A stretch of DNA of 64,000 nt from Liolophura sinensis (taxonomy: Eukaryota > Mollusca > Polyplacophora > Chitonida > Chitonidae): the NCBI RefSeq assembly GCF_032854445.1, contig NC_088307.1, positions 2,666,001 to 2,730,000 on the forward strand, read 5' to 3'. Position 1 is the stretch's first letter, and each line of letters begins with the position of its first letter. Below are positions 23,768 through 56,327 of the stretch, in pieces. A model generated the notes under the pieces. The model worked only from the letters and a program-made list of their open reading frames with translations. It was not told the DNA's origin and did no database searches. A program made the position numbers and the translations under genes.

Positions 23768-23911
23768 CTAGGAGAGCCATGGGAGTATGCAGCATTCAAA
23801 GACTGTCTTGTTAGAGTGCCAGTGAACATGTTCGACTCCCGGTATTTCATACTTGTGAATCGCTCCTCTCTGGTCCAGAGTTTTCAAGCCAAACCAGTCA
23901 TGGATGTACCA
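23768..23911 (-). CDS. PPT2: PPT2-like exon 9 (last coding)
   Basis: Acceptor GTTCCTTCCAG, 47 codons and TAG. Encodes [18 protein letters not shown] and the catalytic His region [11 protein letters not shown], ending CILPWLS, close to the vertebrate C-terminus. Confidence 0.93.
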   Translation of the reverse strand, partial: WYIHDWFGLKTLDQRGAIHKYEIPGVEHVHWHSNKTVFECCILPWLS

Positions 23912-26900
23912 CTGGAAGGAACAAACACAGAGGACAGGCTAGTAATGGCATATTACTAAAATTCACACAGGCACTGAGAAATATTACCGTATTTCACCTA
24001 AAGTTTGGCATATAAATATGCTTCTTCAGCAGCACATGAAGGCACTGAAATGATAGGCCCTACCCTAGATGCCAACACTCAAGTTTTTCTGATAAACTAA
24101 TCAAACTTTACAAAAATATTTTTAAATGACCTATTTACTCCTTGTTAAAAGGACTTGATTCCAGTAACAGTTAAATGACAGTTAATGTACGGACCTCAGA
24201 TGTCTGTGTTCATTCAGTAACAAGTGGAGCCATGCCCTGGATTCATAGAGTCTGGTTATAAGTTGTAATTATATTCAATCTCAGTATTTATTTATTATCA
24301 TGCATGTTTGTACTCTGAGTTGAGTCTGCAATAAAACTAAATAATAATATTTATTTATTTATCCTTTTGATTGGTGTTTTATGCCATACTCAAGAAAATT
24401 TCACTTACAGGCCGGTGGGCCAGCATGATGGTGGGAGGAGACTCGATAATAATAATAACAACAAAGTGAACAAATCAATTAGAATCACTCGACAAGTAAA
24501 ATGTGTGACTTGAGAAACGTAACAGTACAGTACTTAGGAGAAATACAGTACTGCACTCTACCCGGTTTTCTCCCACCATAATTCTGGTTGCCTTCATGCA
24601 AGTGAAACAGTCTTGCCCAGTGAGTGTGTTCAAATCCAGCCCTGGCTGATGCAACTTTGATCATAAATATGCATATACTGTAAAGGTATATCAGGTAACC
24701 ATTGAAGCACACGCTTTCCCAAGGTCTAAGCTCAGTTTCCTCCAACCATAAAACCAAACCAAACCCCAGAAATACATTGGTTTTATTGCGGTCTTTTTTG
24801 TGTTATTTTTTTCCCAAAAATTTATTTTCTGGTTTATGGGTGGAGAAATTTTGGCAATGGTTGTGACCCAGTGTGAAAAAAAACTGTTACACCATCCTGA
24901 GAAAAAGCTAGGCAAAGCTGTAAGGGATACACTGAGGATAGAAGTGTGAAGCAGGTATACTAACACACATTGTTTGGTATTTTGTATGCACTCAAAATAA
25001 TAACATAAATAACCTAAAAATTAGACCCCAAAAGAGCATTTTTTTGGAGGGAAATAAATGTCAAGAGATATTACTTCTGGAGCGAAAATGTACATGTTCC
25101 CAGTAGAATTTCATCCTATCTTATAAATCACCTTCCGAAATCAACAGAACTCCCAGAATCTGGAAAAATTAGCGACTTAAGTCATGGATGAAATTTTCGG
25201 CCATTGAAGGTACTTGCATTCAAAAACTACCATACCACAAACAAAAATACGGCTCTATTAAATCATGAAGAATTAGTAAAACATTTCACAAAACAAACAA
25301 ACAAACATGGATATATTTTAGTTCAAAAGAACCTGTAACACTTGACAATACAAACAAAACTAACACTTACTGGTTGGTTCTTCATTTCTACCACTGTCTC
25401 ATTTTCATTATAAAAGGCAAAATGACTGAAATGAAACAATAATATCTTAGATGATGTCAGAAAAGACACCTTCAACAAAAACCTGAGAAAAACCCATTTC
25501 TTTAAAAATGAATTTAATCTATTTAGTTATTTATTCCATCTGACTTGTTTGACACCATCCTCAACAATTTTTCACTTATTAGTGATGCCGGTCAGTTTAA
25601 TAGGTTGGAGAAATCAGGGTTTTCTGAGCAAACCACCAAGCTTTGGAAAATTACAGTAACCATGGTAACAGGCCTAGTCTCCCGAATAACAAATTTTTAG
25701 AAGGGAATTTGTCTGCAACAGTTACCCTAATTCTTCAACCTTTTCACCTGCCTCTGTAACCAATATTTTGAAACATTCTGCGAGAACTATAGGGCATAGT
25801 GAATTAATCTGCACACTGTTATGAAGCTTGTATTATCTTTAATGACACAAATTATTTTTAGCCTCAGTTTCATAATAGTTGTATGCATAAATACCACGGA
25901 AAAAAGTGCATCAGTGGTTGAAAAGGTTGAAGATTTACAGTTAGCTACAAATTCACTTTTATATACCAACTAAAGCTGAATTCAACCCGTAAAATATAAA
26001 TAACGACAATATTATACATGTAGGTAACTTTAAAGTGGATCATTACTTTACAAACCAATTACGACAAACTTGGAAGTTAGTGATAAAGACACTGATATCA
26101 ACGTTTCACAAGTAACATATACCTGGATTGCCAAGGGGTGATAACTCCGTCATTGGGTCCACCAATCAGCACCAAGTTTTTCAAACTGCTGAAATTCTCC
26201 TTGAATTCTGTGCAAACACAGAAAAATCCATAAAAAGATGAATCACAAATTTTACATGAAAACCATCGAACCTTAATTTTTTGCAGATAGATCAAAATAA
26301 TCCTCAAAACCTGTCCATACAGGTTTTACATGAATTACAAAGCATCAACAAGGTACTTTACCTTGGCTTCGGGGATTAAACGTCTGATTATTCAAGATCG
26401 CCAGAAATTGAGACTCCTTCAGATAAAGTGGCTGGTGATGAGGATCTGAAATGAGAACACAATGCGTACAGAAATAACAGTTACTGAATTAAGAACATAA
26501 TGCATACAGAAATAACAATTACTCATACTGAACTGAGAACATACTGCACAAAGAAATAAAGTTTTTGAATTGAGAGCATAATGCATTAGAAATAACAGTT
26601 ACTAAATTGAAATAAGCCAACAATAAACAAAATCCGCACTTGAATTTAAGAAATAATAATGCCTCTAACCCCTGCCATTCACAAGCCATCCAGCAAACCT
26701 CTTGACAAACTGCCAATTGCAAGGGTTGAACCTCCAACCTCCAAAGTGAGGGGTTGAGGGATTTTGGCGGAAGCCATTACTCTGCTTGATCTTCATTTTG
26801 TCATTATCCAGGTATCATCAAATAGATATTTTATATTTTATGCACTATTTACACATTTGTCTTATGCATATATAAGAAAAAGACAATGTAACCGCTTAAC

Positions 26901-29900
26901 AAAATATGCATAAACAGGCATAGTAAATATACACCACAAACCTTTTTTTCACCAATTCTGTTGCCAATTATTAGCTTAAAACAAAGCACATTTATGGTTT
27001 CACGAATGCTTCAAAACATACTGTAAATCGTCAATCGTTTCAATTACTAAAGCACTTTTTTCAGTAAAGGTCATTTGTTTGTGTCATTAAAGGTGTAAGC
27101 TTCATGAATCTGTGCAAATTATTTCTCTACATTCCATAGTTCTCTCAGAAAATTTCCAAATATTGGTTGCATAGGCAGCTGAAAAAGTTGAAGTATTGAG
27201 ATAATACCAACCATTCCAGTAGTTAGCAATGGACAATTCTTGACCTGTTTGTGTGTAAAACAATCTGCAAAGAAACAAACACAAAAATACTGTTGAAATA
27301 CCTCCATGGTTTACAGGAAGGTCTTATGCATTATTTTTATATGTGAAGATTAAAAAAGCACTCAGTGCCTTAAATGCTCAGGGTAATGCCATCATTTATA
27401 TTACTCACCATGAAGGAATTCATGGAAAAACTATCTATCATAAAGAAACATTTTAAAATAACTACTTTGTGCAATATTAAATTCTGCTTTGAGAAGATAT
27501 CACAAACTCATGCCTAAATCAAAACAGAAATTACATGTTTATGTATTACTTTTCAGGTGTTACCATACGCAATTCATCTCATAGAAAACTTCAAAAAAGA
27601 AATTTAAAAACTTTTCCAACAAGAGTAAGGCAAAACGTAAAGCATGATGTCACATTTGAAAAATAACTTGAACATCTCATTGTTACCTGTATATATTCTT
27701 TTTCAGATACTGCGGGAAGAGATACTTCAAATAGTTACTGTCTGAAATTATTTAAAAAAACAGACATTACAAATTTACAATGAACACCAATTACTTTTGC
27801 TGCAAAAGAGAGTGTGGGTTCCATCCCATACCTGGGAACTTTGCTGCAAAAGAAAGTGTGGGTTCCATCCCATTCCTGGGAACTTTGCTGCAAAAGAAAG
27901 TGTGGGTTCCATCCCATTCCTCGGAACTTTGGCAAAAGAAAGTGTGGGTTCCATCCCATACCTGGGAACTTTGCTGCAAAAGAAAGTGTGGGTTCCATCC
28001 CATTCCTGGGCAGTTTGCTGCAAAAGAAAGTGTGGGTTCCATCCCATTCCTGGGAACTTTGGCAAAAGAAAGTGTGGGTTCCATCCCATTCCTGGGCAGT
28101 TTGCTGCAAAAGAGAGTGTGGGTTCCATCCCATTCCTGGGCAGTTTGCTGCAAAATGAAGTGTGGGTTCCATCCCATTCCTGGGCAGTTTGCTGCAAAAG
28201 AGAGTGTGGGTTCCATCCCATACCTGGGAACTTTGCTGCAAAAGAAAGTGTGGGTTCCATCCCATTCCTGGGAACTTTGGCAAAAGAAAGTGTGGGTTCC
28301 ATCCCATTCCTGGGCAGTTTGCTGCAAAATGAAGTGTGGGTTCCATCCCATTCCTGGGCAGTTTGCTGCAAAAGAGAGTGTGGGTTCCATCCCATTCCTG
28401 GGCAGTTTGCTGCAAAAGAGAGTGTGGGTTCCATCCCATTCCTGGGCAGTTTGCTGCAAAAGAGAGTGTGGGTTCCATCCCATTCCTGGGCAGTTTGCTG
28501 CAAAATGAAGTGTGGGTTCCATCCCATTCCTGGGCAGTTTGCTGCAAAAGAGAGTGTGGGTTCCATCCCATTCCTGGGCAGTTTGCTGCAAAAGAGAGTG
28601 TGGGTTCCATCCCATTCCTGGGCAGTTTGCTGCAAAAGAGAGTGTGGGTTCCATCCCATTCCTGGGCAGTTTGTTGCAAAAGAAAGTGTGGGTTCCATCC
28701 CATTCCTGGGCAGTTTGCTGCAAAAGAGAGTGTGGGATCCATCCCATTCCTGGGCAGTTTGTTGCAAAAGAAAGTGTGGGTTCCATCCCATTCCTGTGCA
28801 GGCTCCTTTGTGACAGTATGTGGTCACTGGTGCTCAATGGGCCACTGGTGCTGTCTTGTTTTTCCTGAAGGCCACTTGTCATCGAACAATGTGGCAATGT
28901 GGCATACATGTCACGCAGTAAAGCAGAGCATACATGTCACTCAGTCAAGTAGAGCATACATGTCACTCCGTAAAGTAGAGCATACATGTCACTCAGTAAA
29001 GTAGAGCATACATGTCACTCAGTAATATAGAGCATACATGTCACTCAGTAAAGTAGAGCATACATGTCACTCAGTAAAGTAAAGCATACATGTCACTCAG
29101 TAAAGTAGAATGTACATCACACAGTAAAGTAGAGCATACATGTCACTCGGTAAAGTAGAGCATACATGTCACTCAGTAAAGTAGAGCATACATATCACTC
29201 AGTAAAGTAGAACATACATGTAACTCAGTAAAGTAGAGCATACATATCACTCAGTAAAGTAAAGCATACATGTCACTCAGTAAAGTAGAACATACATGTC
29301 ACTCAGTAAAGTAGAGCACACATGTCACTCAGTAAAGTAGAGCATACATGTCACTCAGTAAAGTAGAGCATACATGTCACTCAGTAAAGTAGAGTGTACA
29401 TGTCACTCAGTAAGGTAGAGCAAACATGTCACTCAGTAAAGTAGAGCATACATGTCACTCAGTAAAGTAGAGCATACATGTCACTCAGTAAAGTAGAGCA
29501 TACATGTCACTTAGTAAAGTAGATAGTACATGTCACTCAGTAAGGTAGAGCATACATGTCACTGAGTAAAGTAGAGCATACATGTCACTCAGTAAAGTAG
29601 AACATACGTCACTGAGTAAAGTAGAACATAGGTCACACAGTAAAGTAGAACATACGTCACACAGTAAAGTAGAGCATACATGTCACTCAGTAATGTATAG
29701 CATACATGTCACTGAGTAAAGTAGAACATACGTCACACAGTAAAGTAGAACATACATGTCACTCAGTAAAGTAGAGCATACATGTCACTCAGTAAAGTAG
29801 AGCATACATGTCACGCAGTAAAGTAGAGCATACATGTCACTCAGTAAAGTAGAACATACGTCACTCAGTAAAGTAGAGCATACATGTCACTCATTAAAGT

Positions 29901-32900
29901 AGAGCATACATGTCACTCAGTAAAGTAGAGCATACATGTCACTCAGTAAAGTAGAGCATACATGTCACTCAGTAAAGTAGAGCATACATGTCACTCAGTA
30001 AAGTAGAGTGTACATGTCACTCAGTAAAGTAGAGCACACATGTCACTCAGTAAAGTAGAACATACGTCACTCAGTAAAGTAGAGCATACATGTCACTCAT
30101 TAAAGTAGAGCATACATGTCACTCAGTAAAGTAGAGCATACATGTCACTCAGTAAAGTAGAGCATACATGTCACTCAGTCAAGTAGAGCACACATGTCAC
30201 TCAGTAAAGTAGAGCATACATGTCACTCAGTAAAGTAGAGCATACATGTCACTCAGTAAAGTAGAGTGTACATGTCACTCAGTAAGGTAGAGCAAACATG
30301 TCACTCAGTAAAGTAGAGCATACATGTCACTCAGTAAAGTAGAGCATACATGTCACTCAGTAAAGTAGAGCATACATGTCACTTAGTAAAGTAGATAGTA
30401 CATGTCACTCAGTAAGGTAGAGCATACATGTCACTGAGTAAAGTAGAGCATACATGTCACTCAGTAAAGTAGAACATACGTCACTGAGTAAAGTAGAACA
30501 TAGGTCACACAGTAAAGTAGAACATACGTCACACAGTAAAGTAGAGCATACATGTCACTCAGTAATGTATAGCATACATGTCACTCAGTAAAGTAACACA
30601 TACGTCACACAGTAAAGTAGAACATACATGTCACTCAGTAAAGTAGAGCATACATGTCACTCAGTAAAGTAAAGCATACATGTCACGCAGTAAAGTAGAG
30701 CATACATGTCACTCAGTAAAGTAGAGTGTACATGTCACTCAGTAAGGTAGAGCATACATGTCACTCAGTAAAGTAGAGCATACATGTCACTCAGTAAAGT
30801 AGAACATACATGTAACTCAGTAAAGTAGAACATACATGTAACTCAGTAAAGTAGAGCATACATGTCACTCAGTAAAGTAGAGCATACATGTCACTCAGTA
30901 AAGTAGAGCATACATGTCACTTAGTAAAGTAGATAGTACATGTCACTCAGTAAGGTAGAGCATACATGTCACTGAGTAAAGTAGAGCATACATGTCACTC
31001 AGTAAAGTAGAACATACGTCACTGAGTAAAGTAGAACATAGGTCACACAGTAAAGTAGAACATACGTCACACAGTAAAGTAGAGCATACATGTCACTCAG
31101 TAATGTATAGCATACATGTCACTCAGTAAAGTAGAACATACGTCACACAGTAAAGTAGAACATACATGTAACTCAGTAAAGTAGAGCATACATGTCACTC
31201 AGTAAAGTAGAGCATACATGTCACGCAGTAAAGTAGAGCATACGTCACTCAGTAAAGTAGAACATACGTCACTCAGTAAAGTAGAGCAAACATGTCACTC
31301 ATTAAAGTAGAGCATACGTCACACAGTAATGTAGAACAAACATGTCACTCAGTAAAGTAGAGCATACATGTCACTCAGTAAAGTAGAACATACGTCACAC
31401 AGTAATGTAGAACATACATGTCACTCAGTAAAGTAGAGCATACATGTCACTCAGTAAAGTAGAGCATACATGTCACTGAGTAAAGTAGAACAAACATGTC
31501 ACTCAGTAAAGTAGAGCATACATGTCACTGAGTAAAGTAGAACATACGTCACTCAGTAAAGTAGAGCATACATGTCACACAGTAAAGTAGAGCATACATG
31601 TCACTCATTAAAGTAGAGCATACATGTCACTCAGTAAAGTAGAACATACGTCATACAGTAATGTAGAACATACATGTCACTCAGTAAAGTAGAGCATACA
31701 TGTCACTCAGTAAAGTAGAGCATACATGCCACGCAGTAAAGTAGAGCATACATGTCACTCAGTAAAGTAGAACATACGTCACTCAGTAAAGTAGAGCATA
31801 CATGTCACTCATTAAAGTAGAGCATACATGTCACTCAGTAAAGTAGAGCATACATGTCACTGAGTAAAGTAGAGCATACATATCACTCAGTAAAGTAGAG
31901 CATACATGTCACTCAGTAAAGTAGAGTGTACATGTCACTCAGTAAAGTAGAGCACACATGTCACTCAGTAAAGTAGAACATACGTCACTCAGTAAAGTAG
32001 AGCATACATGTCACTCATTAAAGTAGAGCATACATGTCACTCAGTAAAGTAGAGCATACATGTCACTCAGTAAAGTAGAGCATACATGTCACTCAGTCAA
32101 GTAGAGCACACATGTCACTCAGTAAAGTAGAGCATACATGTCACTCAGTAAAGTAGAGCATACATGTCACTCAGTAAAGTAGAGTGTACATGTCACTCAG
32201 TAAGGTAGAGCAAACATGTCACTCAGAAAAGTAGAGCATACATGTCACTGAGTAAAGTAGAGCATACATGTCACTCAGTAAAGTAGAGCATACATGTCAC
32301 TCAGTAAAGTAGATAGTACATGTCACTCAGTAAGGTAGAGCATACATGTCACTGAGTAAAGTAGAGCATACATGTCACTCAGTAAAGTAGAACATACGTC
32401 ACTGAGTAAAGTAGAACATAGGTCACACAGTAAAGTAGAACATACGTCACACAGTAAAGTAGAGCATACATGTCACTCAGTAATGTATAGCATACATGTC
32501 ACTCAGTAAAGTAACACATACGTCACACAGTAAAGTAGAACATACATGTCACTCAGTAAAGTAGAGCATACATGTCACTCAGTAAAGTAGAGCATACATG
32601 TCACGCAGTAAAGTAGAGCATACATGTCACTCAGTAAAGTAGAGCATACATGTCACTCAGTAAAGTAGAGCATACATGTCACTCAGTAAAGTAGAGTGTA
32701 CATGTCACTCAGTAAGGTAGAGCATACATGTCACTCAGTAAAGTAGAGCATACATGTCACTCAGTAAAGTAGAACATACATGTAACTCAGTAAAGTAGAA
32801 CATACATGTAACTCAGTAAAGTAGAGCATACATGTCACTCAGTAAAGTAGAGCATACATGTCACTCAGTAAAGTAGAGCATACATGTCACTCAGTAATGT

Positions 32901-35900
32901 ATAGCATACATGTCACTCAGTAAAGTAACACATACGTCACACAGTAAAGTAGAACATACATGTCACTCAGTAAAGTAGAGCATACATGTCACGCAGTAAA
33001 GTAGAGCATACATGTCACTCAGTAAAGTAGAGCATACATGTCACTCAGTAAAGTAGAGCATACATGTCACTTAGTAAAGTAGAGTGTACATGTCACTCAG
33101 TAAGGTAGAGCATACATGTCACTCAGTAAAGTAGAGCATACATGTCACTCAGTAAAGTAGAACATACATGTAACTCAGTAAAGTAGAACATACATGTAAC
33201 TCAGTAAAGTAGAGCATACATGTCACTCAGTAAAGTAGAGCATACATGTCACTCAGTAAAGTAGAGCATACATGTCACTTAGTAAAGTAGATAGTACATG
33301 TCACTCAGTAAGGTAGAGCATACATGTCACTGAGTAAAGTAGAGCATACATGTCACTCAGTAAAGTAGAACATACGTCACTGAGTAAAGTAGAACATAGG
33401 TCACACAGTAAAGTAGAACATACGTCACACAGTAAAGTAGAGTATACATGTCACTCAGTAATGTATAGCATACATGTCACTCAGTAAAGTAACACATACG
33501 TCACACAGTAAAGTAGAACATACATGTCACTCAGTAAAGTAGAGCATACATGTCACTCAGTAAAGTAGAGCATACATGTCACGCAGTAAAGTAGAGCATA
33601 CATGTCACTCAGTAAAGTAGAGCATACATGTCACTCAGTAAAGTAGAGCATACATGTCACTCAGTAAAGTAGAGTGTACATGTCACTCAGTAAGGTAGAG
33701 CATACATGTCACTCAGTAAAGTAGAGCATACATGTCACTCAGTAAAGTAGAACATACATGTAACTCAGTAAAGTAGAACATACATGTAACTCAGTAAAGT
33801 AGAGCATACATGTCACTCAGTAAAGTAGAGCATACATGTCACTCAGTAAAGTAGAGCATACATGTCACTCAGTAAAGTAGAACATACATGTAACTCAGTA
33901 AAGTAGAACATACATGTAACTCAGTAAAGTAGAGCATACATGTCACTCAGTAAAGTAGAGCATACATGTCACTCAGTAAAGTAGAGCATACATGTCACTC
34001 AGTAATGTATAGCATACATGTCACTCAGTAAAGTAGAGCATACATGTCACTGAGTAAAGTAGAACATACGTCACTCAGTAAAGTAGAGCATACATGTCAC
34101 ACAGTAAAGTAGAGCATACATGTCACTCATTAAAGTAGAGCATACATGTCACTCAGTAAAGTAGAACATACGTCATACAGTAATGTAGAACATACATGTC
34201 ACTCAGTAAAGTAGAGCATACATGTCACTCAGTAAAGTAGAGCATACATGCCACGCAGTAAAGTAGAGCATACATGTCACTCAGTAAAGTAGAACATACG
34301 TCACTCAGTAAAGTAGAGCATACATGTCACTCAGTAATATAGAGCATACATGTCACTCAGTAAAGTAGAGCATACATGTCACTGAGTAAAGTAGAGCATA
34401 CATGTCACTCAGTAAAGTAGAGCATACATGTCACTCAGTAAAGTAGAGTGTACATGTCACTCAGTAAAGTAGAGCACACATGTCACTCAGTAAAGTAGAA
34501 CATACGTCACTCAGTAAAGTAGAGCATACATGTCACTCATTAAAGTAGAGCATACATGTCACTCAGTAAAGTAGAGCATACATGTCACTCAGTAAAGTAG
34601 AGCATACATGTCACTCAGTCAAGTAGAGCACACATGTCACTCAGTAAAGTAGAGCATACATGTCACTCAGTAAAGTAGAGCATACATGTCACTCAGTAAA
34701 GTAGAGTGTACATGTCACTCAGTAAGGTAGAGCAAACATGTCACTCAGAAAAGTAGAGCATACATGTCACTCAGTAAAGTAGAGCATACATGTCACTCAG
34801 TAAAGTAGAGCATACATGTCACTCAGTAAAGTAGATAGTACATGTCACTCAGTAAGGTAGAGCATACATGTCACTGAGTAAAGTAGAGCATACATGTCAC
34901 TCAGTAAAGTAGAACATACGTCACTGAGTAAAGTAGAACATAGGTCACACAGTAAAGTAGAACATACGTCACACAGTAAAGTAGAGCATACATGTCACTC
35001 AGTAATGTATAGCATACATGTCACTCAGTAAAGTAACACATACGTCACACAGTAAAGTAGAACATACATGTCACTCAGTAAAGTAGAGCATACATGTCAC
35101 TCAGTAAAGTAGAGCATACATGTCACGCAGTAAAGTAGAGCATACATGTCACTCAGTAAAGTAGAGCATACATGTCACTCAGTAAAGTAGAGCATACATG
35201 TCACTCAGTAAAGTAGAGTGTACATGTCACTCAGTAAGGTAGAGCATACATGTCACTCAGTAAAGTAGAGCATACATGTCACTCAGTAAAGTAGAACATA
35301 CATGTAACTCAGTAAAGTAGAACATACATGTAACTCAGTAAAGTAGAGCATACATGTCACTCAGTAAAGTAGAGCATACATGTCACTCAGTAAAGTAGAG
35401 CATACATGTCACTCAGTAATGTATAGCATACATGTCACTCAGTAAAGTAACACATACGTCACACAGTAAAGTAGAACATACATGTCACTCAGTAAAGTAG
35501 AGCATACATGTCACGCAGTAAAGTAGAGCATACATGTCACTCAGTAAAGTAGAGCATACATGTCACTCAGTAAAGTAGAGCATACATGTCACTTAGTAAA
35601 GTAGAGTGTACATGTCACTCAGTAAGGTAGAGCATACATGTCACTCAGTAAAGTAGAGCATACATGTCACTCAGTAAAGTAGAACATACATGTAACTCAG
35701 TAAAGTAGAACATACATGTAACTCAGTAAAGTAGAGCATACATGTCACTCAGTAAAGTAGAGCATACATGTCACTCAGTAAAGTAGAGCATACATGTCAC
35801 TTAGTAAAGTAGATAGTACATGTCACTCAGTAAGGTAGAGCATACATGTCACTGAGTAAAGTAGAGCATACATGTCACTCAGTAAAGTAGAACATACGTC

Positions 35901-38900
35901 ACTGAGTAAAGTAGAACATAGGTCACACAGTAAAGTAGAACATACGTCACACAGTAAAGTAGAGTATACATGTCACTCAGTAATGTATAGCATACATGTC
36001 ACTCAGTAAAGTAACACATACGTCACACAGTAAAGTAGAACATACATGTCACTCAGTAAAGTAGAGCATACATGTCACTCAGTAAAGTAGAGCATACATG
36101 TCACTCAGTAAAGTAGAGCATACATGTCACTCAGTAAAGTAGAGCATACATGTCACTCAGTAAAGTAGAGCATACATGTCACTCAGTAAAGTAGAGTGTA
36201 CATGTCACTCAGTAAGGTAGAGCATACATGTCACTCAGTAAAGTAGAGCATACATGTCACTCAGTAAAGTAGAACATACATGTAACTCAGTAAAGTAGAA
36301 CATACATGTAACTCAGTAAAGTAGAGCATACATGTCACTCAGTAAAGTAGAGCATACATGTCACTCAGTAAAGTAGAGCATACATGTCACTCAGTAATGT
36401 ATAGCATACATGTCACTCAGTAAAGTAACACATACGTCACACAGTAAAGTAGAACATACATGTCACTCAGTAAAGTAGAGCATACATGTCACTCAGTAAA
36501 GTAGAGCATACATGTCACGCAGTAAAGTAGAGCATACATGTCACTCAGTAAAGTAGAGCATACATGTCACTCAGTAAAGTAGAACATACATGTAACTCAG
36601 TAAAGTAGAACATACATGTAACTCAGTAAAGTAGAGCATACATGTCACTCAGTAAAGTAGAGCATACATGTCACTCAGTAAAGTAGAGCATACATGTCAC
36701 TTAGTAAAGTAGATAGTACATGTCACTCAGTAAGGTAGAGCATACATGTCACTGAGTAAAGTAGAGCATACATGTCACTCAGTAAAGTAGAACATACGTC
36801 ACTGAGTAAAGTAGAACATAGGTCACACAGTAAAGTAGAACATACGTCACACAGTAAAGTAGAGCATACATGTCACTCAGTAATGTATAGCATACATGTC
36901 ACTCAGTAAAGTAGAACATACGTCACACAGTAAAGTAGAACATACATGTAACTCAGTAAAGTAGAGCATACATGTCACTCAGTAAAGTAGAGCATACATG
37001 TCACGCAGTAAAGTAGAGCATACGTCACTCAGTAAAGTAGAACATACGTCACTCAGTAAAGTAGAGCAAACATGTCACTCATTAAAGTAGAGCATACATG
37101 TCACTCAGTAAAGTAGAGTGTACATGTCACAGAAATTTTTTCAATTCAACATATATGAGTATAACACTCTAAACAACAATCAAATAAAACAACAAATAAA
37201 TTCATTCCATATATTTATCATCAATTGAACGTGATGAGTTACCCAGTATAATACCCAGTATAATAACTAACATATTAGACCAAAGATAGGTTTTATTCAG
37301 TATTTAACAATGCTTATCCTAAGAGTTATCAAATAACTGCAAATTATCATTTTTAGCTCGCCTGTAAGAAGAAAGGAGAGGTACTGTGAGAGGCAGATCA
37401 GGGGCTCACAGTGACAGTATCGGTGTCCAGTTCAGGGTCCAAAGTTTTGGCCAATCATAAGGTTGTAATGCCCCACAAAATAGAAGTCTTGTCAGTTGTT
37501 AAAGCTACCTCTTCCCAGGTTGTTTCAATACCTGTCCGTTGGCAAAAAACAAGAGCTTATATGACTGTGAACAAAAGCCATCATCTGGTGCTGTAATGCT
37601 ACCAAGTGTTCTATTGACCTTGAACTCAATGCCATCATGCACTGAAACTTATGGATTCACCAGCTTTCGGCTCCGACCAAATTTTGTGGAGGTCCGCGCT
37701 CTATTTATTAATCGTGTCAATGCATTTGCGCTGTCTCCTGTCATGTGTTGCCATGTCCAGTCTACAAACCACCTATTAACTTTGTGACGGCATATTGGTA
37801 ACTCCGGAGAAGGCTTCCGAGTTAAAACAAAATATGAAAGTTTTGGCTAAGAAATTACTGTTCGACTTTGTCACATTTTCCCCAGAGCTGAGCTTGTGCA
37901 TTACATGTCTCCTTTGTTATGTACACAACACGTGCTAGCTGGCGGCATTTATCAGTCATGTATTGTGCTTTTAGTGAGCTAGCCGTAGGCGGAGAAAGGT
38001 GACATTCAATCTGAACAGAATCAATGACTTTCCATGAACAGGTCATCATTGACACTCTCTCGTGCCAATGGTTATATCATTTCACTCTGTGGACAAAACA
38101 ATTTTATCAGACAAGGATGGCGAGGCTCCACAAGCCAGTAATTTTTAATCGTTAAAAGAAAACAAAAATGCTCTGGAATATAACACATACATGGACTGAT
38201 CTGGCCTTGAAAGCTGTGTGATGCTCAGAGTGTATGACAGATATGTTTTACACTGGCTTCCTGATCTATGCTGATCACAGTTCCTGCTGTGGCTCCCCAT
38301 CGGTCACATACCCGAGGATTCTGGTGGACATGTACAGTATGATAGCGAACTGTACTCCAGTACAACCAGCTTCGTACACAAATTAATTACACAAATGCTT
38401 TGCCACAGTTACAGTAAATAAAAGGAAAAATCTGCTAGGAAGTAATGTAGATGACTTTATTAGCCACATGTTCACGTAACCAATTTGCACAAACAATTGG
38501 TCTGTTTTTGTGTCGTAAAAAAACCGAACAATCAGTTATTAAAACCTGTAACTGATTTTTTGGTTACATCAACCACTCAAATTTCATGGCCTGCTGTGGT
38601 TCTTACCTACTTTTCGCTATACAACGTTTACAAATTACATCTGTCTTTCTGTGTTCATATATATAGAGTTTATTTTCACTTTTTAAACATGTTTAAGGTA
38701 CATGCAAAAGGAGGTTTCCCAACCAATTTTTTGTACCATGGTACATGTATGACATTCTTACCTCCATACTGTCCAGCTTGGGGAGAGCTCAGAGACACGA
38801 AGGAAATGACGTTATGTTTGATTGTTGACAAAACCCCGCGGCAAATCAGACCACCTGTGATTTAAAGACAACATAATATTCAGTCTTATAACAGAGTAAA

Positions 38901-41900
38901 CAAATTAGCCTTACAACACAGTAAACAATTCAGTCTTATAACACAGTAAACAATTCAGTCTTACAACACAGTGAACAATTTGCACTCCTCTGTCCAGAGT
39001 TCAAATGAACTGCAACAGACACTGATCCGTTTCAAATTTAAAATCATTATTACCCTAACCGCTTCTGCAGCCAGTATTTTGAGACATTCTGAGAAACCTA
39101 TGGTGTGTAGAGAAATAATTTGCACTTTCATGAAGCTTGCATCTTTAATGACACAAACAAATCCTTTTTAGTGTCATTTTCATTATAACTGTATGCATAA
39201 ATTCCACTGAAAAAAGTGCTTTAGTGGTTGAAAAGGTTGAAGATTTTCAGTAAGTTTGCTGGAGGGTGGCCCATAATATTACTGTAAAATGGAAGTTATG
39301 CATATACTTATTATGAAAATGATCCTAAAAATTATATATTTATCTCATTAAAGATGCAAGCTTCATAAAACTGAGCTAATAATTTCTCCAAGCCCCAAAG
39401 CTCTCACAGAATGTCTCAAACTGCTGGTTGCAGCGGTGGTTGAAAAGGTTGAAAAATTAGGGTACATAGTCAGTGTTGTATATTCGTATTTATCGCAGCT
39501 GTCCAGACTCTTTAACATGCTTAAACATTACATCCAATGTATGCATACATCAGTAAATTAACCCATATAAAGTTTAAAGTATAGATGCTTAGTTACAAAA
39601 CCAAGACATCACAGCTCGAAATAAGCCGAAATGTGCACACAGATTCGATGTGGTTTGATTTGTTTATTCACCAATTATATGTAAATAAGTCTTGTTTTAA
39701 AAAAGGTGAAGTACCAAGACTGCTAAAAAACAACTGGATTATGAAAAGTGTTAAATTTCATTACAGAGTAACTGGCGAGAACAGAAATCCCTGAGGGCTT
39801 GTTTTATCTGTACGACACATAAAATAATAGTATCTGCTGATAGAGATCAGTAGCAGCATATGCAGTGGTGAACAAATCACAGTTGTGAACAAATCATAAC
39901 CACAGCTGTGAGCAAATCATAACCACAGCTGTGAGCAAATCATAACCACAGCTGTGAGCAAATCATAACCACAGCTGTGAGCAAGTCATAATCACAGTTG
40001 TGAGCAAGTCATAATCACAGTTGTGAGCAAATCATAACCACAGCTGTGAGCAAGTCATAATCACAGTTGTGAGCAAGTCATAATCACAGTTGTGAGCAAG
40101 TCATAACCACAGCTGTGAACAAATCGTAACCACAGCTGTGAACAAATCATAACCACAGTTGTGAAGAAATCATAATCACAGTAATAAACAAATAAACAAA
40201 TAACTCTTAGTAATAAAATATCTCATGTGAATAAAGGTTAGGTGGAGTTTTATACATTAGATAGCAAAATAGAATTCATTATACTCTTAAACAAAGATAA
40301 TGTTAAACAAAAAGAAACTTAAACAAAGAGCAATGTTAATTATTTGGACACAATGTTCTCCACCTGTTACATAGCTTTTCAGCTAATCAATAGCTTCCCC
40401 CCGAAAACCTTGGTATTTTAATTTATCCAATAATATATTATGGCCCACAGTGTCAAAGGCTTTAGAGAGGTCCAAAAATAGAGGCATACATGTAAATCAT
40501 TTTTTCACAGAGAGAGATGGCTGCCAGAGAAGTAGAATGAAAACAGACACATCCAAACTGACATAAAACTGAAAACACTGCCATGTTGTCAATCTTAACC
40601 TATCAGGCAGCTCACATTTATTGTTATAACCTGTTCACAGTGTAGGGTTACTGATTGACGCCATGTTCAGGGAATGGAAAAGATTAGATCCTGTTGCCAT
40701 GCTTACGGTCAGACCTACCTTGAGAAAAACAGACAACATGGACGCCATCTGGGTTCTGCTGAAAGATCTTCTTCATGCGTTCCTTGAAATAGTCGATTTG
40801 CTCCCACATGGGGCGAAGACTGAAGGCGCCATTAAACCCGTTCAGGATCGTCACATTGGTGCCTGGGTGAGCCTTCGTACAACAGAAAACCAATCAATGG
40901 TCACAGGACGTTAAAATCTGAGATTCATCAAACAGAAACCCATCATTTACTCTATCAGGGGTCACATGACAAATTTGCACTTTGTCACATTTTGTTACAG
41001 TCTCATTTATTACCCGCCTATAACATGTGCATGTGCGAAAAGGTTGTGGAGTTGTAGGGTAGATGTTGTCAGAACTCACCACTGGTGTTAACTCAGACAT
41101 GGCATTTAATGCATTTTGTTTTTAAGCGTACACAGCTCAGTTCGGTTTGGTGGAGGCAAAATTCAGGGGAAGAATTAATCTCTAAGGATGACAAAAATAA
41201 AATACAACACAAAATTACCACATCAACAGGAACAAAAAAAAAGCAATGACGGAAGAAAGAAGGCAAATATACGTGCTGTCCCAATCAGTACGCAGGCTGG
41301 GCAGTGGGAGACGGTAGAATACCACACCCTTCATTTAAATACCACAAAAAAGACATGTCTCCCAGTCTAAGGGCAGAACATTTCAGTTGGTTTTTTGCCA
41401 GGAAGTTTTGAGATTTAAGAAAACATTTCATTTGGGTATAGGTCGCTTCATTCAAACTACACGTCCCTAAGTTGACACAACCAGTAGCTGTGAACAATTA
41501 GAAACATGATACATCAGGAAGAAACTGTGGATAACAACACCACTACTGTCCTTCATACCTTTTTTTTTTTTATACGTGGTTACAAAAACACCATAAGCGG
41601 TTACAAACACACCATAAATAAATAGTGCAACAGTACCCGAGCCGCAAACCTTGGGGGTTTGTGCATGCTTTAATCTCTCGTTTTGAAAAGCAGCCTTTTT
41701 TGTCCGCCAAACCTCTGCGCTCTCGCATAATCTGCCTAATCACACACTCATTTTAGAAGTACATGTAGGTGCACCATAATTCTCCTCATTTTGGGGACAA
41801 ATATAAGCAGTGTTGAAAGAAAAATATTACATTTCTTTACCAGCCTTTTGGAAACGTAAAGGTATGAATATGTTGTTCATTAGATAGTCTAACCGTGTGA

Positions 41901-44900
41901 GAAAGAAGAAACTCAATATTCCTGCTATAGCTACATATATATTGGCTAAAATGAGCAGAAAAGGTGTCCAAAAAATCAGAAGAAATAGAGCAGGTGAAGA
42001 AAACTGCATGTATATATTTCTAGAGTACCAATTAAAACCACCGCCCTTTGTGAGGTACACTGTAGCAGAAAACTCTCCTAATTCAACACAGTCCAATTCA
42101 GCTGCAAATAGATTTGAGAATATTACATTATTAGTGAGAGGCTGATCTGCTTGTGACAAAAAAAAAAAAAACTTAAAACGGCCAGCAATACTCACATATA
42201 CTAAACAATTAAGCATACCTTTCAGAGAACACAAAAGTTTCTGATCATACCTGTACATAGGTATATACCATTTACCTGCCTACCTCTTGGATGAACTGCT
42301 TGCAAATCTCATAATGTCTGGGTTCATTAAACAGGCCATGCATTAATATAACATGTTTATGACAAATCGCAGGCAAACCCCAACCCAAATACAAAACGGC
42401 ACAAAATCCGAGCTTTAAACAAAGAGCCATATCACTGACTTTTGCCAGGTCAGTCAGATTAGCAGCAACACAGACCATTTACATGTATACACTTAACATA
42501 TGTATACTCAACAGATAAGGCTTAACACACATTAGCCTTGGTTGTGGGCCAACTGTACAATATAAGAGGGTACATAGGGAGAGGGAGGAGCCATGTACAC
42601 TGGACGGTATTAAAACCGGTTATAATTTCGAGCAATTTTTCACCAACTAATTTACATGCCCTGCTGTATGAGCTATAGTATGGAAGGGCGATTACACCAA
42701 CCCTGAAAGTCTTTGTTAATTAAAATATAACAACAGGGTAGATTGATAGGAAACTTCGTTTATTCTAGTTAATTAAAAAGATGGGATTTCAAAGAAATCA
42801 ATATTGAGAGTAAAATATACGTAAAAGATGCTCCATGAAAATCTCAATAAAACCTTTGGAACAGGTCTCTGTTGTTGGAAGGCATTCATGTTACCCCCAA
42901 TGAATTTTAATGTTGTTGGCCTTGGTGAAAAATGATGTGGAAATTTTACATGTCATGTACAATATCAAAGTCACAGCAATTTACTAGATTTTTCACAAAC
43001 TACACCTGGGGAAAGAAATTCCATGGAATTATAGAGGCTTTACAGTACTGATATTAAACTATGCAGGTATAAAGCAAGAAATATAACAATTTATGAAATG
43101 AGATGTTGGTAATAAAACTAAGGCCTTGTATGTTATTAAAGGAAGAGAAAACATAAAAATGATATAAAGTTCAAAAGAAAGAGTGCAAAAAGTTATTAAT
43201 AAATGTGGTCTTCAATATTTTTTCCAATTTTTCCTTAAACAGAAAAAGACACTTGAAAATAATTTTTGTATGGTGGGTATTTGGGACCACCTTTTGGTAT
43301 TTATAGTCTCTGTTTAATAATGTCATGCATGAGGATGTAACACAGGTTTAACAAATATTTTTGCACTAGAATTTGTTCTTTTCAGCTAACAAATGTATAA
43401 AACCTCAATTTGGATCACATTTATATTAGTAATACGTTCATAAATATTATCATAATTTAGGTTAAATGCATAGGTTTCGATATAAACAACAAATTTACAT
43501 TCAAATAAATTTATTAGTCAAGCATTACATCCTTATTTAGAACATTATTATGCAACAACAACACCAAAAGTTGGTCCCAAATACCCACCATACAAAAATA
43601 TTTTCAAATAAGTTTTGATGCTCTTTCATCTGATTTTGTCATCATTTTTATGTTTTTTCCCCCTTTAACAGACCACTCCATCCAGAACTACATTACAGTT
43701 GTCATGGTTACATTTTTTGTCAATGTAACTCTACCTTACCTCTTTTTTCAATAAATGTAGAAGCTCTGCTAGAGAAATGTGAAACCCTGTCACAGGTCAA
43801 AAGAGACCAACAATACTGGCCTGCATTTCAATACCCCCTTTTTACACATACCACAGAGGTACTGTAACAAAGGCTCTCCCTGTACGACTAAAATCCCTGC
43901 CACCAGATCATTTTCTTTGTTGTCGCTGGTTATGTATTACCTTTCAGCCAGGTAAACAATCTAAACCCCTTTCCAAATCATAGATTATTTCTTTCAAAAA
44001 ACATTGCTTTCATGATTCAGAACAGAATTATCTTGTGCAACATGCTGCAATGACGACGTCAGTCTGATCTAAACTTTTTTCATGATTTAATCTGAAACAA
44101 CTCCTATCTTATGACACACATGCCCAATCACGGTAAAATAAATTAATAATTTTCTATACCCTCAGCCAGTTTCTTAGAAAGTTACTTACTTCCATAAAGG
44201 CTGTTTTTATGTATTTAGATCTGACATAGACGTACTCGCGCGTTGTTACTTCAAACCTTTTTTTTAATGCGGCCAAGTCTGACAGCAAGTCCCACGAGGC
44301 TAGGTGCGTGAGTCTCACTTTCCTATTCTCTACTTCCCAACATATGAGGCAAGTGCACAGAAAAAGAGAGTCAACAAAGTTTACCCCAAATTTATGATTA
44401 TAGCACGTACGTCTAAAGTGAAATGAACTGTGAGTTACGTGGTAAGTGCACCATTCTTCATATGCAGACTATTGGTTTTCAATTTTGGCCGGGTTTTCGG
44501 CACACGTTTACAACCTACCTTTCCATGTCAACATTAAAGATTTGATTTAACCCAGGTCACAGATGTCATTGATGGCTATACTGTCTCTAGGGCCTCATGA
44601 AAAGGGGAAAATACACAAACTCGTTGGTCAAGGCCCGGATCACACATGAAACCAGCATGTTCATGTGATTGAAAGACCAGCATCTTAAACCACTCAGCCT
44701 CAACCAGGATATCCCTTTCCCTGAATAAACTGAGATTTGTGTGGACCTGTTTGACTGTGATGAGCCCTTTTGGGAACATCACAGCTGAGGTTGCTATCAG
44801 GTGGTAAAGTGACGACAATTCACTGAAGAACCAGCCTTTCATAATGAGCATGAGAAGAGGCTCAATGACTACCAAAAGTACAAAAATAGTCTTTACATCT

Positions 44901-45727
44901 GCCACCCGTTTTTACAATATGATGTCTTTGGTGTTTTGAACCAAATCTGTCAACTGATGAAGACAACTGACTTTTTGTCAATGTAACACTTTTGGACACC
45001 TCCAGCCTATTCAACTAATATAAAGGCTCTGCAGCAGAAAAGCAAAACCTTGTCCCATGTCAAATGAGACAAACAGTACTTTCTGAGTTTCAATCTCAGA
45101 AACCCTGTCTTTTAAATATTCACCTCAGATAAAGTATCAAGACACACAAAGAGTTCCAAACTCTGGACAGAATCCACAGTAAGGATATAGTGCCCAGCTG
45201 TTTCCTCAATTAACATCATGATTAACCTACACTGTGACGTAATATGATAAATTCATGACATTGATGTACATCACAGTCATAGTTTCATAATCACCCTAAA
45301 TGACCCTAAAATTTTATACATGACTTAAGTTACCGGTATTCATTATTCCAGATTCTAGGAGCTCTACTGATCTTAGAAAGGAGATCGTAGGAGTGTTAGC
45401 AAGATAAGATGATATCCAACTGGGAAAATGTAAATTTTAGCACCACCAATGCTCTCCGGACATTTATTTGCCTCCCTAAATGGTCTTGTGTGGTCGAATA
45501 CTTGTGCGCTTAATTAAAAAATGTACAAACCAGAAAAACAAAACTAGAAAAAGTTACACAAGTAACCTGTGCACACGTACCTGTTGTATGAATCCATTCA
45601 AATGATCTAGCTCCGTAGTTGTCGCAAAAATCCCGTGCATTAAGATGACATGACGGTACGATGGGACCTCCACGAAAGTAACGAAAAGAGCAGCCAGTTT
45701 TAGCCACTGTGCCGCAGATAGTCCCAT
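23768..45727 (-). CDS. PPT2: Lysosomal thioesterase PPT2-like (gene span)
   Basis: Palmitoyl-protein thioesterase 2 family, an alpha/beta hydrolase that cleaves acyl thioesters such as palmitoyl-CoA in the lysosome. The coding exons, minus strand, are 45581-45727 (1a) or 42284-42430 (1b), then 40719-40872, 38762-38854, 27687-27741, 27212-27264, 26362-26445, 26123-26207, 25371-25425 and 23768-23911. All phases agree and give 289 residues; human PPT2 has about 302. Residues 1-22 are a signal peptide. HVILMHG (26-32) is the first strand and oxyanion loop. The nucleophile is S99 in [16 protein letters not shown] follows at 122-131. The acid is D215 in [11 protein letters not shown] and the base H270 in [10 protein letters not shown]-glycosylation sequons occur at N55, N187, N232 and N276, as expected for a lysosomal enzyme. 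Intron 3 is 11 kb and mostly satellite. Confidence 0.95.
24364..24650. mobile_element. Nested SINE fragments
   Basis: Plus-strand AATATTTCAC-family start at 24364-24440 (GATTGGTGTTTTATGCC, CCAGCATGATGGTGGGAGG). Inverted companion motifs lie at 24555-24600 (TTTTCTCCCACCATAATTC). A B-box-like GTGTTCAAATCCAGCCC is at about 24628. It lies in PPT2 intron 8. Confidence 0.55.
25080..25200 (-). repeat. Dispersed repeat, paired with 45300-45480
   Basis: The reverse complement contains CCAGATTCTGGGAG, AAGATAGGATGA and ACTGGGAACATGTACATTTT, matching the plus-strand segment 45300-45480 (CCAGATTCTAGGAG, AAGATAAGATGA, ACTGGGAAAATGTAAATTTT). Confidence 0.65.
25371..25425 (-). CDS. PPT2: PPT2-like exon 8
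   Basis: Acceptor TCATTTCAG, donor CCA|GTAAGT. Encodes [18 protein letters not shown], including the N232 sequon; matches the FFGFYDANETV region of vertebrate PPT2. Confidence 0.92.
25720..25940 (+). mobile_element. Short MITE-like repeat
   Basis: About 220 bp with inverted ends (left CTAATTCTTCAACCTTTTC, right GAAAAGGTTGAAGATTT) and core GTTATGAAGCTTGTATT, then TTTAATGACACAAA. Other copies lie at 27005-27205 (minus), 39048-39253 (plus), 39290-39475 (minus) and 60885-61060 (minus). Confidence 0.7.
26123..26207 (-). CDS. PPT2: PPT2-like exon 7
   Basis: Acceptor TTTGCACAG, donor AG|GTATAT. Encodes [17 protein letters not shown] with the catalytic Asp (D215). Confidence 0.94.
26362..26445 (-). 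CDS. PPT2: PPT2-like exon 6
   Basis: Acceptor CTCATTTCAG, donor CAAG|GTAAAG. Encodes [19 protein letters not shown]; the DPHH...LYL...FLA pattern is that of PPT2. N187 sequon (NQT). Confidence 0.93.
27005..27205 (-). mobile_element. MITE copy abutting a 5' splice site
   Basis: Copy of the 25720-25940 family in reverse orientation. Its end (GAAAAAGTTGAAGTATTGAG) finishes within about 10 bp of the donor of PPT2 exon 5 (exon ends at 27212). Confidence 0.65.
27212..27264 (-). CDS. PPT2: PPT2-like exon 5
   Basis: Acceptor TTCTTTGCAG, donor AATG|GTTGGT. Encodes [17 protein letters not shown], the GQEFSICNYW segment of vertebrate PPT2. The frame runs open beyond the donor into the adjacent MITE, but exon 6 supplies the correct continuation (DPHH). 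Confidence 0.92.
27687..27741 (-). CDS. PPT2: PPT2-like exon 4
   Basis: Acceptor AAATAATTTCAG, donor AG|GTAACA. Encodes [19 protein letters not shown], matching DTDYLKWLFP....NLYR of the family. Its acceptor lies about 50 bp from the 44-bp array. Confidence 0.93.
27790..28800. repeat. 44-bp tandem repeat in PPT2 intron 3
   Basis: About 23 copies of a 44-bp unit (GCTGCAAAAGAGAGTGTG, GGTTCCATCCCATTCC, TGGGCAGTTT); a few are 42 bp. All frames of both strands are stop-free, producing overlapping ORFs of 114-372 codons that are artefacts. On the PPT2 sense strand each unit contains CACACTCTCTTTTGCAG, a strong acceptor-like motif. Confidence 0.95.
28900..37130. repeat. 8.2-kb satellite, 26-bp unit with higher-order structure
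   Basis: About 320 copies of AGAGCATACATGTCACTCAG plus TAAAGT, with frequent 24-bp variants (AGAACATACGTCACTCAG) and diagnostic variants such as GATAGTACATG, TAATGTATAGCATAC and TAACACATACG. The GATAGTACA variant is at 29522, 30394, 30932, 32312, 33290, 34834, 35812 and 36712. A 2522-bp offset links 31728/34250, 32312/34834, 33290/35812, 33441/35963 and 33671/36193, showing a recent large duplication. It occupies most of PPT2 intron 3. Confidence 0.97.
37131..38761. other. Remainder of PPT2 intron 3
   Basis: No exon recognised on either strand. Short frames between 37411 and 38055 have no supporting splice context. Confidence 0.5.
38762..38854 (-). CDS. PPT2: PPT2-like exon 3
   Basis: Acceptor TTTAAATCACAG, donor GGAG|GTAAGA. 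Encodes [15 protein letters not shown] and [13 protein letters not shown], completing the nucleophile elbow begun in exon 2. Confidence 0.95.
38878..38985. repeat. 25-bp tandem repeat, four copies
   Basis: Unit CAGTCTTATAACACAGTAAA plus CAATT. It starts 24 bp outside the acceptor of PPT2 exon 3. Confidence 0.9.
39048..39475. mobile_element. Two inverted copies of the MITE family
   Basis: Plus copy 39048-39253 (CTTTCATGAAGCTTGCATC, TTTAATGACACAAACAAA) followed by a minus copy about 39290-39475 (GATGCAAGCTTCATAAAAC, GGTTGAAAAGGTTGAA). In PPT2 intron 2. Confidence 0.7.
39865..40190. repeat. 23-bp tandem repeat
   Basis: About 14 copies of GTGAGCAAATCATAACCACA plus GCT, with AACCACAGCT/AATCACAGTT variants. 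In PPT2 intron 2. Confidence 0.93.
40340..40492 (-). mobile_element. Non-LTR retrotransposon reverse transcriptase fragment
   Basis: Minus-strand translation [20 protein letters not shown], then [12 protein letters not shown], a stop, and LKSYVTG. '[14 protein letters not shown]...G..G......SYL' is the palm region of CR1/Jockey-type LINE reverse transcriptases. It is short and interrupted by a stop. Confidence 0.85.
40719..40872 (-). CDS. PPT2: PPT2-like exon 2
   Basis: Acceptor TGTTGTACGAAG, donor CAAG|GTAGGT. Encodes [31 protein letters not shown] and [10 protein letters not shown] with catalytic S99. Both alternative first exons can join it in phase 0. Confidence 0.95.
40873..42283. other. 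PPT2: Intron between exon 1b and exon 2
   Basis: No further exon recognised; poly-T and poly-A tracts near 41561 and 42160. Confidence 0.6.
42284..42430 (-). CDS. PPT2: PPT2-like alternative first exon 1b
   Basis: ATG at 42430 gives 49 codons ending at donor GAG|GTAGGC, phase 0. Encodes [18 protein letters not shown] (signal peptide), then HVILMHGLF and CKQFIQE. It has exactly the same length as exon 1a, with HVILMHG at the same residues (26-32). An in-frame ATG at 42478 would add 16 residues and weaken the signal peptide. The length identity with exon 1a argues for 42430. Transcripts using it would need their own promoter or an upstream noncoding exon. Confidence 0.85.
43140..43664. mobile_element. 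TTAA-flanked MITE, 525 bp
   Basis: Long inverted ends: the left one contains AAAACATAAAAATGA and TGTATGGTGGGTATTTGGGA; the right end is its inverse (TCCCAAATACCCACCATACA, TCATTTTTATGTTTT). TTAA flanks both sides (43136-43139 and 43665-43668), the target duplication of piggyBac-type elements. No coding capacity. Confidence 0.75.
44635..44715 (-). mobile_element. tRNA-like SINE head
   Basis: Minus strand GAGGCTGAGTGGTTTAAGAT then GCTGGTCTTTCAATCAC resembles the 5' half of a Ser/Leu-type tRNA, but the rest does not fold. Confidence 0.45.
45300..45480 (+). repeat. Dispersed repeat, partner of 25080-25200
   Basis: Inverse orientation relative to the copy in PPT2 intron 8; shared blocks are described at 25080. 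Confidence 0.6.
45581..45727 (-). CDS. PPT2: PPT2-like first exon 1a
   Basis: ATG at 45727 gives 49 codons to donor CAG|GTACGT, phase 0. Encodes [18 protein letters not shown] (signal peptide), then HVILMHGIF and LNGFIQQ. It starts 186 bp from the divergent PHYHD1 ATG. Confidence 0.92.
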
Positions 45728-45913
45728 CTTCCCCTTGTGGCTGTCAGGATCGACGTCCAGGTCTGCAATGACAGATCCATTGCCTTCACCGCGAAACTCC
45801 CCGCGGAAGGTTATTTAAACACTTGGCGAGGGGAGGGCTTTCTGAAAATGCCGCGCTGCCATTGGCTAACCCTGGTGGTGTAACCTATTGACCTTTGCGC
45901 TTTCAACAACAAC
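45728..45913. promoter_or_regulatory. Shared divergent promoter PPT2/PHYHD1
   Basis: Only 186 bp separate the two start codons. The interval is richer in G/C and CpG than its surroundings (CCGCGAAACTCCCCGCGG). It contains an inverted CCAAT box (GCCATTGGC, ATTGG at 45861-45865) and GGTTATTTAAAC near 45809. NF-Y-type CCAAT boxes are common in bidirectional promoters. Confidence 0.65.

Positions 45914-56327
<10,414 letters not shown>

Follow-up and report, generated by a model that had tools for sequence, protein, structure and literature searches.

The closest described counterpart of the arrangement treated here is the UGT1 (UGT1A) cluster, where, according to the part of PMC9209448 drawn on here, first exons give an enzyme different N-terminal parts. 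A second counterpart is the Drosophila gene silver, which in the excerpted part of PMC3228551 resembles it in that its exons are close in length, alike in sequence, in one frame and bounded by compatible splice sites. That excerpt also classes homologous initial exons as multiple promoters, and keeps them apart from internal mutually exclusive exons. A comparable layout occurs in a stretch of 64,000 nucleotides (the window) from the chiton Liolophura sinensis (contig NC_088307.1, positions 2,666,001 to 2,730,000). Judged from its sequence, the gene concerned is PPT2, and the chiton copy carries two first coding exons, here called 1a and 1b, on one common set, exons 2-9. With a probability of about 0.6, the two are homologous and serve as alternative starts of the coding sequence, the promoter deciding between them, on eight common exons.

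The layout in PPT2 is of the UGT1A type, with homologous first coding exons, the same donor phase and common downstream exons. It differs in scale, as there are two copies of the first exon instead of nine or more, and in extent, as variation is confined to 49 codons, of which about half encode mature protein; the promoters and transcripts of the PPT2 exons are predictions from DNA. Silver is another gene, and 1a and 1b show the features that the excerpt of PMC3228551 asks of mutually exclusive exons, being alike in length and in sequence and keeping both splice sites and frame. Because each has an ATG, both look terminal and, in the terms of that excerpt, would belong with the multiple promoters unless an untranslated exon precedes 1b. 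The PPT1 gene of this genome (contig C7), a member of the same enzyme family, has a first exon that stops sooner than that of PPT2, at WHGMG; one such exon was seen when 15 kb were scanned with a motif filter.

PPT2 is a lysosomal enzyme whose natural substrates, and whose difference from PPT1, are poorly understood. A gene that varies the signal peptide and the loop next to the oxyanion hole alone would be a natural experiment on the role of that loop and, if the reading is true, a lysosomal hydrolase joins the enzymes that vary their N-terminal part through the choice of first exon. No PPT2 with a duplicated first coding exon is described in the titles or abstract openings that our searches of PubMed Central listed, a scope outside which most papers of subscription journals fall. 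We know of no such duplication in vertebrate PPT2 either, an absence that says little since this animal is a mollusc.

Homologous first exons on a common PPT2 body

An earlier interpretation of the window made from its letters (the sequence-only reading) had proposed two exons of 49 codons, each with an ATG, HVILMHG at residues 26-32 and a phase-0 donor, and each completing a full enzyme of 289 residues. Both proposals hold. The two exons are found as described, each with its own ATG and a phase-0 GT donor compatible with exon 2, and either of them joins exons 2-9 in frame to give 289 residues without internal stop (Table 1). The introns are GT-AG throughout in the gene model with 1a or with 1b. 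Intron 1, from 1a to exon 2, is about 4.7 kb long and contains 1b, which lies 1,411 bp from exon 2.

The products of the two models are equally recognizable. The Pfam family Palm_thioest spans residues 27-270 in both isoforms, with 242.3 bits for the 1a and 240.1 bits for the 1b isoform (cut-off 26.8). The 1b isoform aligns with human PPT2 (PDB 1PJA) over residues 5-289 with an E-value of 1.5e-100 and 339.4 bits, and is closer to it than to PPT1, where the matches reach 59.2 and 57.8 bits. Exons 1-3 score 123.3 bits against human PPT2 with 1a and 122 bits with 1b, and when exons 1-3 of the 1a isoform are compared with the PDB, 1PJA is the only match. Ser99, Asp215 and His270 of the 1b isoform align, together with the surrounding SQG, DG and H motifs, to positions 111, 228 and 283 of human PPT2, which we take to be those of the catalytic triad. 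The 49-residue peptides carry little of this signal on their own: Pfam assigns neither of them to a family, a PDB search returned nothing for 1b and three chance-level matches to peptide deformylase for 1a (E 1.3-1.4), and NCBIfam has no match to the 1a isoform.

By the codon list, the two peptides have the same residue at 13 of 49 positions (M1, L3, H26-G32, F34, F46, I47 and Q48), and 64 of 147 bases agree. The identity is concentrated in residues 26-34 (8/9), with 2/25 in residues 1-25 and 3/15 in residues 35-49. This short core is nevertheless well above background. When the corresponding segment of human PPT2 was compared with 30,825 open 26-residue segments from the six frames of the window (mean score -25, standard deviation 11), 1a ranked best (51) and 1b second (47), followed by a third at 31. 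The window holds 413 ATG-started open stretches of 49 codons, and in 15 of them, 1a and 1b included, a GT follows; within this set 1a and 1b score +42 against each other, and the next best partner reaches -12 for 1a and -18 for 1b. The top score in 20,000 shufflings of the 1b peptide was 17. Finally, a degenerate DNA pattern for HVILMHG has two matches in the whole assembly of 609 Mb, namely 1a and 1b, and its reversed control has none. By the ranking with the human segment, the mutual match and the uniqueness of the pattern, the two exons are homologous beyond chance.

No clear similarity extends beyond the coding exons. With 500 bases added on either side, 1a and 1b share at best a 20-base match, which falls within the core (E 0.16), so neither promoters nor introns are recognizably duplicated. 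A 199-base stretch of intron 1 recurs at 71% identity elsewhere in the PPT2 gene and is taken as a dispersed repeat. Apart from a weak match at E 6.78, with 28% identity and four stops, no further copy of exon 1 or 2 was found in the assembly, and a search there with 701 bp around 1b recovered nothing beyond the query itself, giving no sign of a second allele.

Constraint and age of the exon pair

An old duplication of the first coding exon, as proposed in the sequence-only reading, is supported. Six of the 13 residues common to 1a and 1b use different codons. Within the core (residues 26-34), change has reached about 4.5 of 5.3 silent sites, against 1.5 of 21.7 replacement sites; this excess of silent changes between the copies supports selection on the shared core. 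On either side of the core both kinds of divergence are high, with 0.79 silent and 0.66 replacement in residues 1-25 and 0.63 and 0.54 in residues 35-49. The claim that everything else is strongly diverged stands for the sequence, but not for the character of four positions: as read by eye from the alignments, residues 40, 43, 46 and 47 are hydrophobic in 1a (L, L, F, I), in 1b (Y, C, F, I) and in human PPT2 (F, L, Y, I), as would be expected on the buried side of the first helix.

Neutral decay simulated from 1a kept the ATG, frame, GT and core together in 0.165% of 20,000 runs at a distance of 0.3, and in none of 20,000 at each of 0.6, 0.9 and 1.2; the observed distance between 1a and 1b is about 1.05. 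Since these features are lost in the simulation well before the observed distance, the result argues that selection held both copies for most of their history, which is a separate matter from the use of both at present.

Over residues 24-49 the two exons agree with each other at 11 of 26 positions and each agrees with human PPT2 at nine, and exon 2 agrees with human PPT2 at 27 of 52. They also have in common H26, L29, M30, F46 and Q48, five residues that human PPT2 lacks. As 1a and 1b agree about as little as either does with the human protein and yet share these five, the duplication appears to be old and probably arose in the lineage leading to this chiton, although the same agreement numbers could come from a fast-evolving signal and loop.

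Probable promoter choice and competing explanations

In the reading that we favour, transcription from a region common with a divergent phytanoyl-CoA-dioxygenase-like gene would give an mRNA in which 1a is joined directly to exon 2 and 1b is skipped. The starts of 1a and this gene lie 186 bp apart, and G+C and CpG are raised there, as they should be at a shared promoter; the 250 bp upstream of 1a have a G+C content of 0.52 and a CpG ratio of 0.64. Lacking an in-frame acceptor among the sites tested ahead of it, 1b would leave 1a transcripts with the 4.7-kb intron. A second promoter, placed within intron 1, would yield an mRNA in which 1b is spliced to exon 2, and the choice of promoter would decide which N-terminus is produced. 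Each mRNA would encode a full-length thioesterase, secretory or lysosomal, and the predicted triad (Ser99, Asp215 and His270) would be common to both. What would set the isoforms apart is the signal peptide, the stretch following HG (residue I33 and loop ATTTE in 1a, L33 and NEPRH in 1b) and the surface of the first helix; the different signal-like part and loop had been pointed out in the sequence-only reading and are seen in the two peptides. Judged by hydrophobicity, both 1a and 1b start with a signal-like N-terminus. We infer the two promoters, the expression of both exons, the function of the signal peptides and any difference in tissue or substrate. An altered preference for acyl chain or head group between the isoforms is plausible, and a simpler use, in which the isoforms differ in expression or secretion but not in activity, is equally likely.

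A wider version of this reading appears rather doubtful to us. It would make 1a and 1b an ancient and stable pair, in this lineage or perhaps in molluscs, that supplies two PPT2 enzymes whose loops next to the oxyanion hole differ and which would thereby act on different acyl-thioesters. The locus would then be a small-scale UGT1A in a lysosomal lipid hydrolase, in which 1a depends on the promoter of the phytanoyl-CoA-dioxygenase-like gene. The pair is read as ancient because over 26 residues the difference between its members nearly equals that of either from human PPT2.

Several observations weigh against promoter-chosen first exons. No promoter sign is seen for 1b, with a G+C content of 0.40 and a CpG ratio of 0.29 in the 250 bp upstream. 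Its codon-usage score is -5.3 bits, which is not coding-like and is reached by 61% of the 413 background stretches, and 1a scores +6.7 bits (reached by 5.3%); after correction for amino-acid composition, 1b does not stand out from background (54%) and 1a does so only slightly (8.5%). This test is low in power, since the first exon of PPT1 too scores below zero in the composition-corrected version, the one in which it was scored. The hydrophobic peak of 1b is matched by 7.3% of the background stretches and that of 1a by 1.5%. The start of 1b is also uncertain, as an in-frame ATG lies upstream of it (Table 1). A rival explanation holds that a single exon, most likely 1a, remains in use and that 1b is a former alternative exon silenced too recently to have gained stops: its codon usage is background-like, its upstream region poor in G+C and CpG, its hydrophobic peak weaker, and its donor gtaggc looks further from the consensus than the gtacgt of 1a. 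Such a silencing is unlikely, though to be taken seriously, because frame, ATG, donor and core of 1b have survived a divergence that destroys them under neutral decay and because its fit to human PPT2 is about equal to that of 1a.

The acceptor sites around 1b bear on whether it could be internal. Of 169 AG sites tested ahead of 1b in intron 1, not one would fuse 1a to 1b in an open reading frame, and a first exon with its own promoter fits this lack of an acceptor. On the other side, among three AGs tested inside 1b, all ahead of its last 17 bases, two permit such a fusion (exon start 42412, 129 nt, and 42307, 24 nt). Alternative first exons, probably promoter-chosen, is therefore a better label than the term mutually exclusive used in the sequence-only reading. 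An internal 1b could arise in two ways, either because an untranslated exon that has escaped notice and a genuine acceptor lie ahead of it, so that splicing selects, or through an AG within 1b that would make part of it a cassette between 1a and exon 2. The acceptor for the start at 42412 does resemble the accepted exon 2 acceptor in its pyrimidines and in the base at -3 (Table 1). The serial product with 43 codons of 1b, however, would contain the first strand and the oxyanion loop twice in a single alpha/beta hydrolase, along with a second hydrophobic stretch, and should not fold as PPT2; an internal position also leaves the ATG and the signal-like start of 1b unexplained, and we regard it as improbable. 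More improbable still is that the pair is the remnant of a tandem PPT2 duplication, in which exons 2-9 disappeared from one of the copies and the neighbouring gene took over the first exon left behind. The absence of clear similarity outside the coding exons makes the size of the original duplication unreadable and so leaves room for this history, which would have the same outcome today, as the two may still act as alternative first exons. Against it, the 60 matches listed for the 1a isoform in a tblastn search of the window consist of the known exons, 1b (E 0.037) and then noise from E 1.8, with no relic of exons 2-9 above that noise. Nor is there a relic elsewhere in the assembly with exons 1-3 and exons 1-2 as queries, and none of the four and two matches to these queries is a retrocopy with a spliced junction.

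Features around the gene and elsewhere in the genome

The coordinates of the PPT2 exons and of the features around 1a and 1b are collected in Table 1.

Table 1. PPT2 exons and associated features, in positions of the window
Feature	Position	Strand	Remarks
PPT2 exon 1a, first coding	45581..45727	-	49 codons, signal-like N-terminus, HVILMHGIF, donor CAG/gtacgt
PPT2 exon 1b, first coding	42284..42430	-	49 codons, signal-like N-terminus, HVILMHGLF, donor GAG/gtaggc
PPT2 exon 2, common	40719..40872	-	nucleophile motif SQG (Ser99) at its end
PPT2 exon 3	38762..38854	-	
PPT2 exon 4	27687..27741	-	
PPT2 exon 5	27212..27264	-	
PPT2 exon 6	26362..26445	-	
PPT2 exon 7	26123..26207	-	contains Asp215
PPT2 exon 8	25371..25425	-	
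PPT2 exon 9	23768..23911	-	contains His270 and the stop codon
Probable shared promoter region	45728..45913	.	186 bp between the ATG of 1a and the ATG of the divergent gene
AG inside 1b, putative acceptor	42413..42414	-	would join 1a to the last 43 codons of 1b; 11/17 pyrimidines at -20..-4, A at -3
Second AG inside 1b, weaker putative acceptor	42308..42309	-	would join 1a to the last 8 codons of 1b; 8/17 pyrimidines, G at -3
Open in-frame stretch before 1b	42431..42478	-	ATG 16 codons before the ATG of 1b; possible N-terminal extension

Ahead of 1a, an out-of-frame ATG at 45780 opens a frame of 26 codons on the minus strand (45700-45780) that runs past the start codon of 1a; it is a possible brake on 1a translation, if it lies inside the mRNA. 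Within PPT2, intron 3 (27742-38761, about 11 kb) consists mostly of minisatellite arrays, as judged by eye from their repeated translations, and one of these arrays, at about 27800-28820, stops near exon 4.

The divergent phytanoyl-CoA-dioxygenase-like gene occupies positions 45914-55900 of the plus strand, and PF05721 matches three of its exons, near 47515, 53700 and 55800. A tandem repeat at 47092-47540 carries copies of the start of its exon 2: TTCAAGGAGGAT is found at 47092, 47144, 47267 and 47443, in addition to 47515 in exon 2 itself. The copies at 47144 and 47443 retain CACAG ahead of it and are possible decoy acceptors. At the other end of the window, an open frame on the minus strand (2277-2687) would encode a cysteine-rich, secreted-looking protein with a von Willebrand C-like pattern, recognized by eye.

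Elsewhere in the assembly, a contig of 108,685 bases (C99) holds the mitochondrial genome several times over, head to tail, with a period of 15,537 bases where it was read, together with a long repeat, about 400 bases, whose translation alternates Y and M. ARAGORN found no transfer RNA in the mitochondrial stretches. COX1 is identified in this contig by Pfam, and the long frames are open under translation tables 5 and 9, not 2. The gene order, read by eye and in keeping with that of chitons, places cox1-cox2-atp6 together with nad2, nad3 and cox3 on one strand, and nad5-nad4-nad4L-cob-nad6-nad1 on the other.
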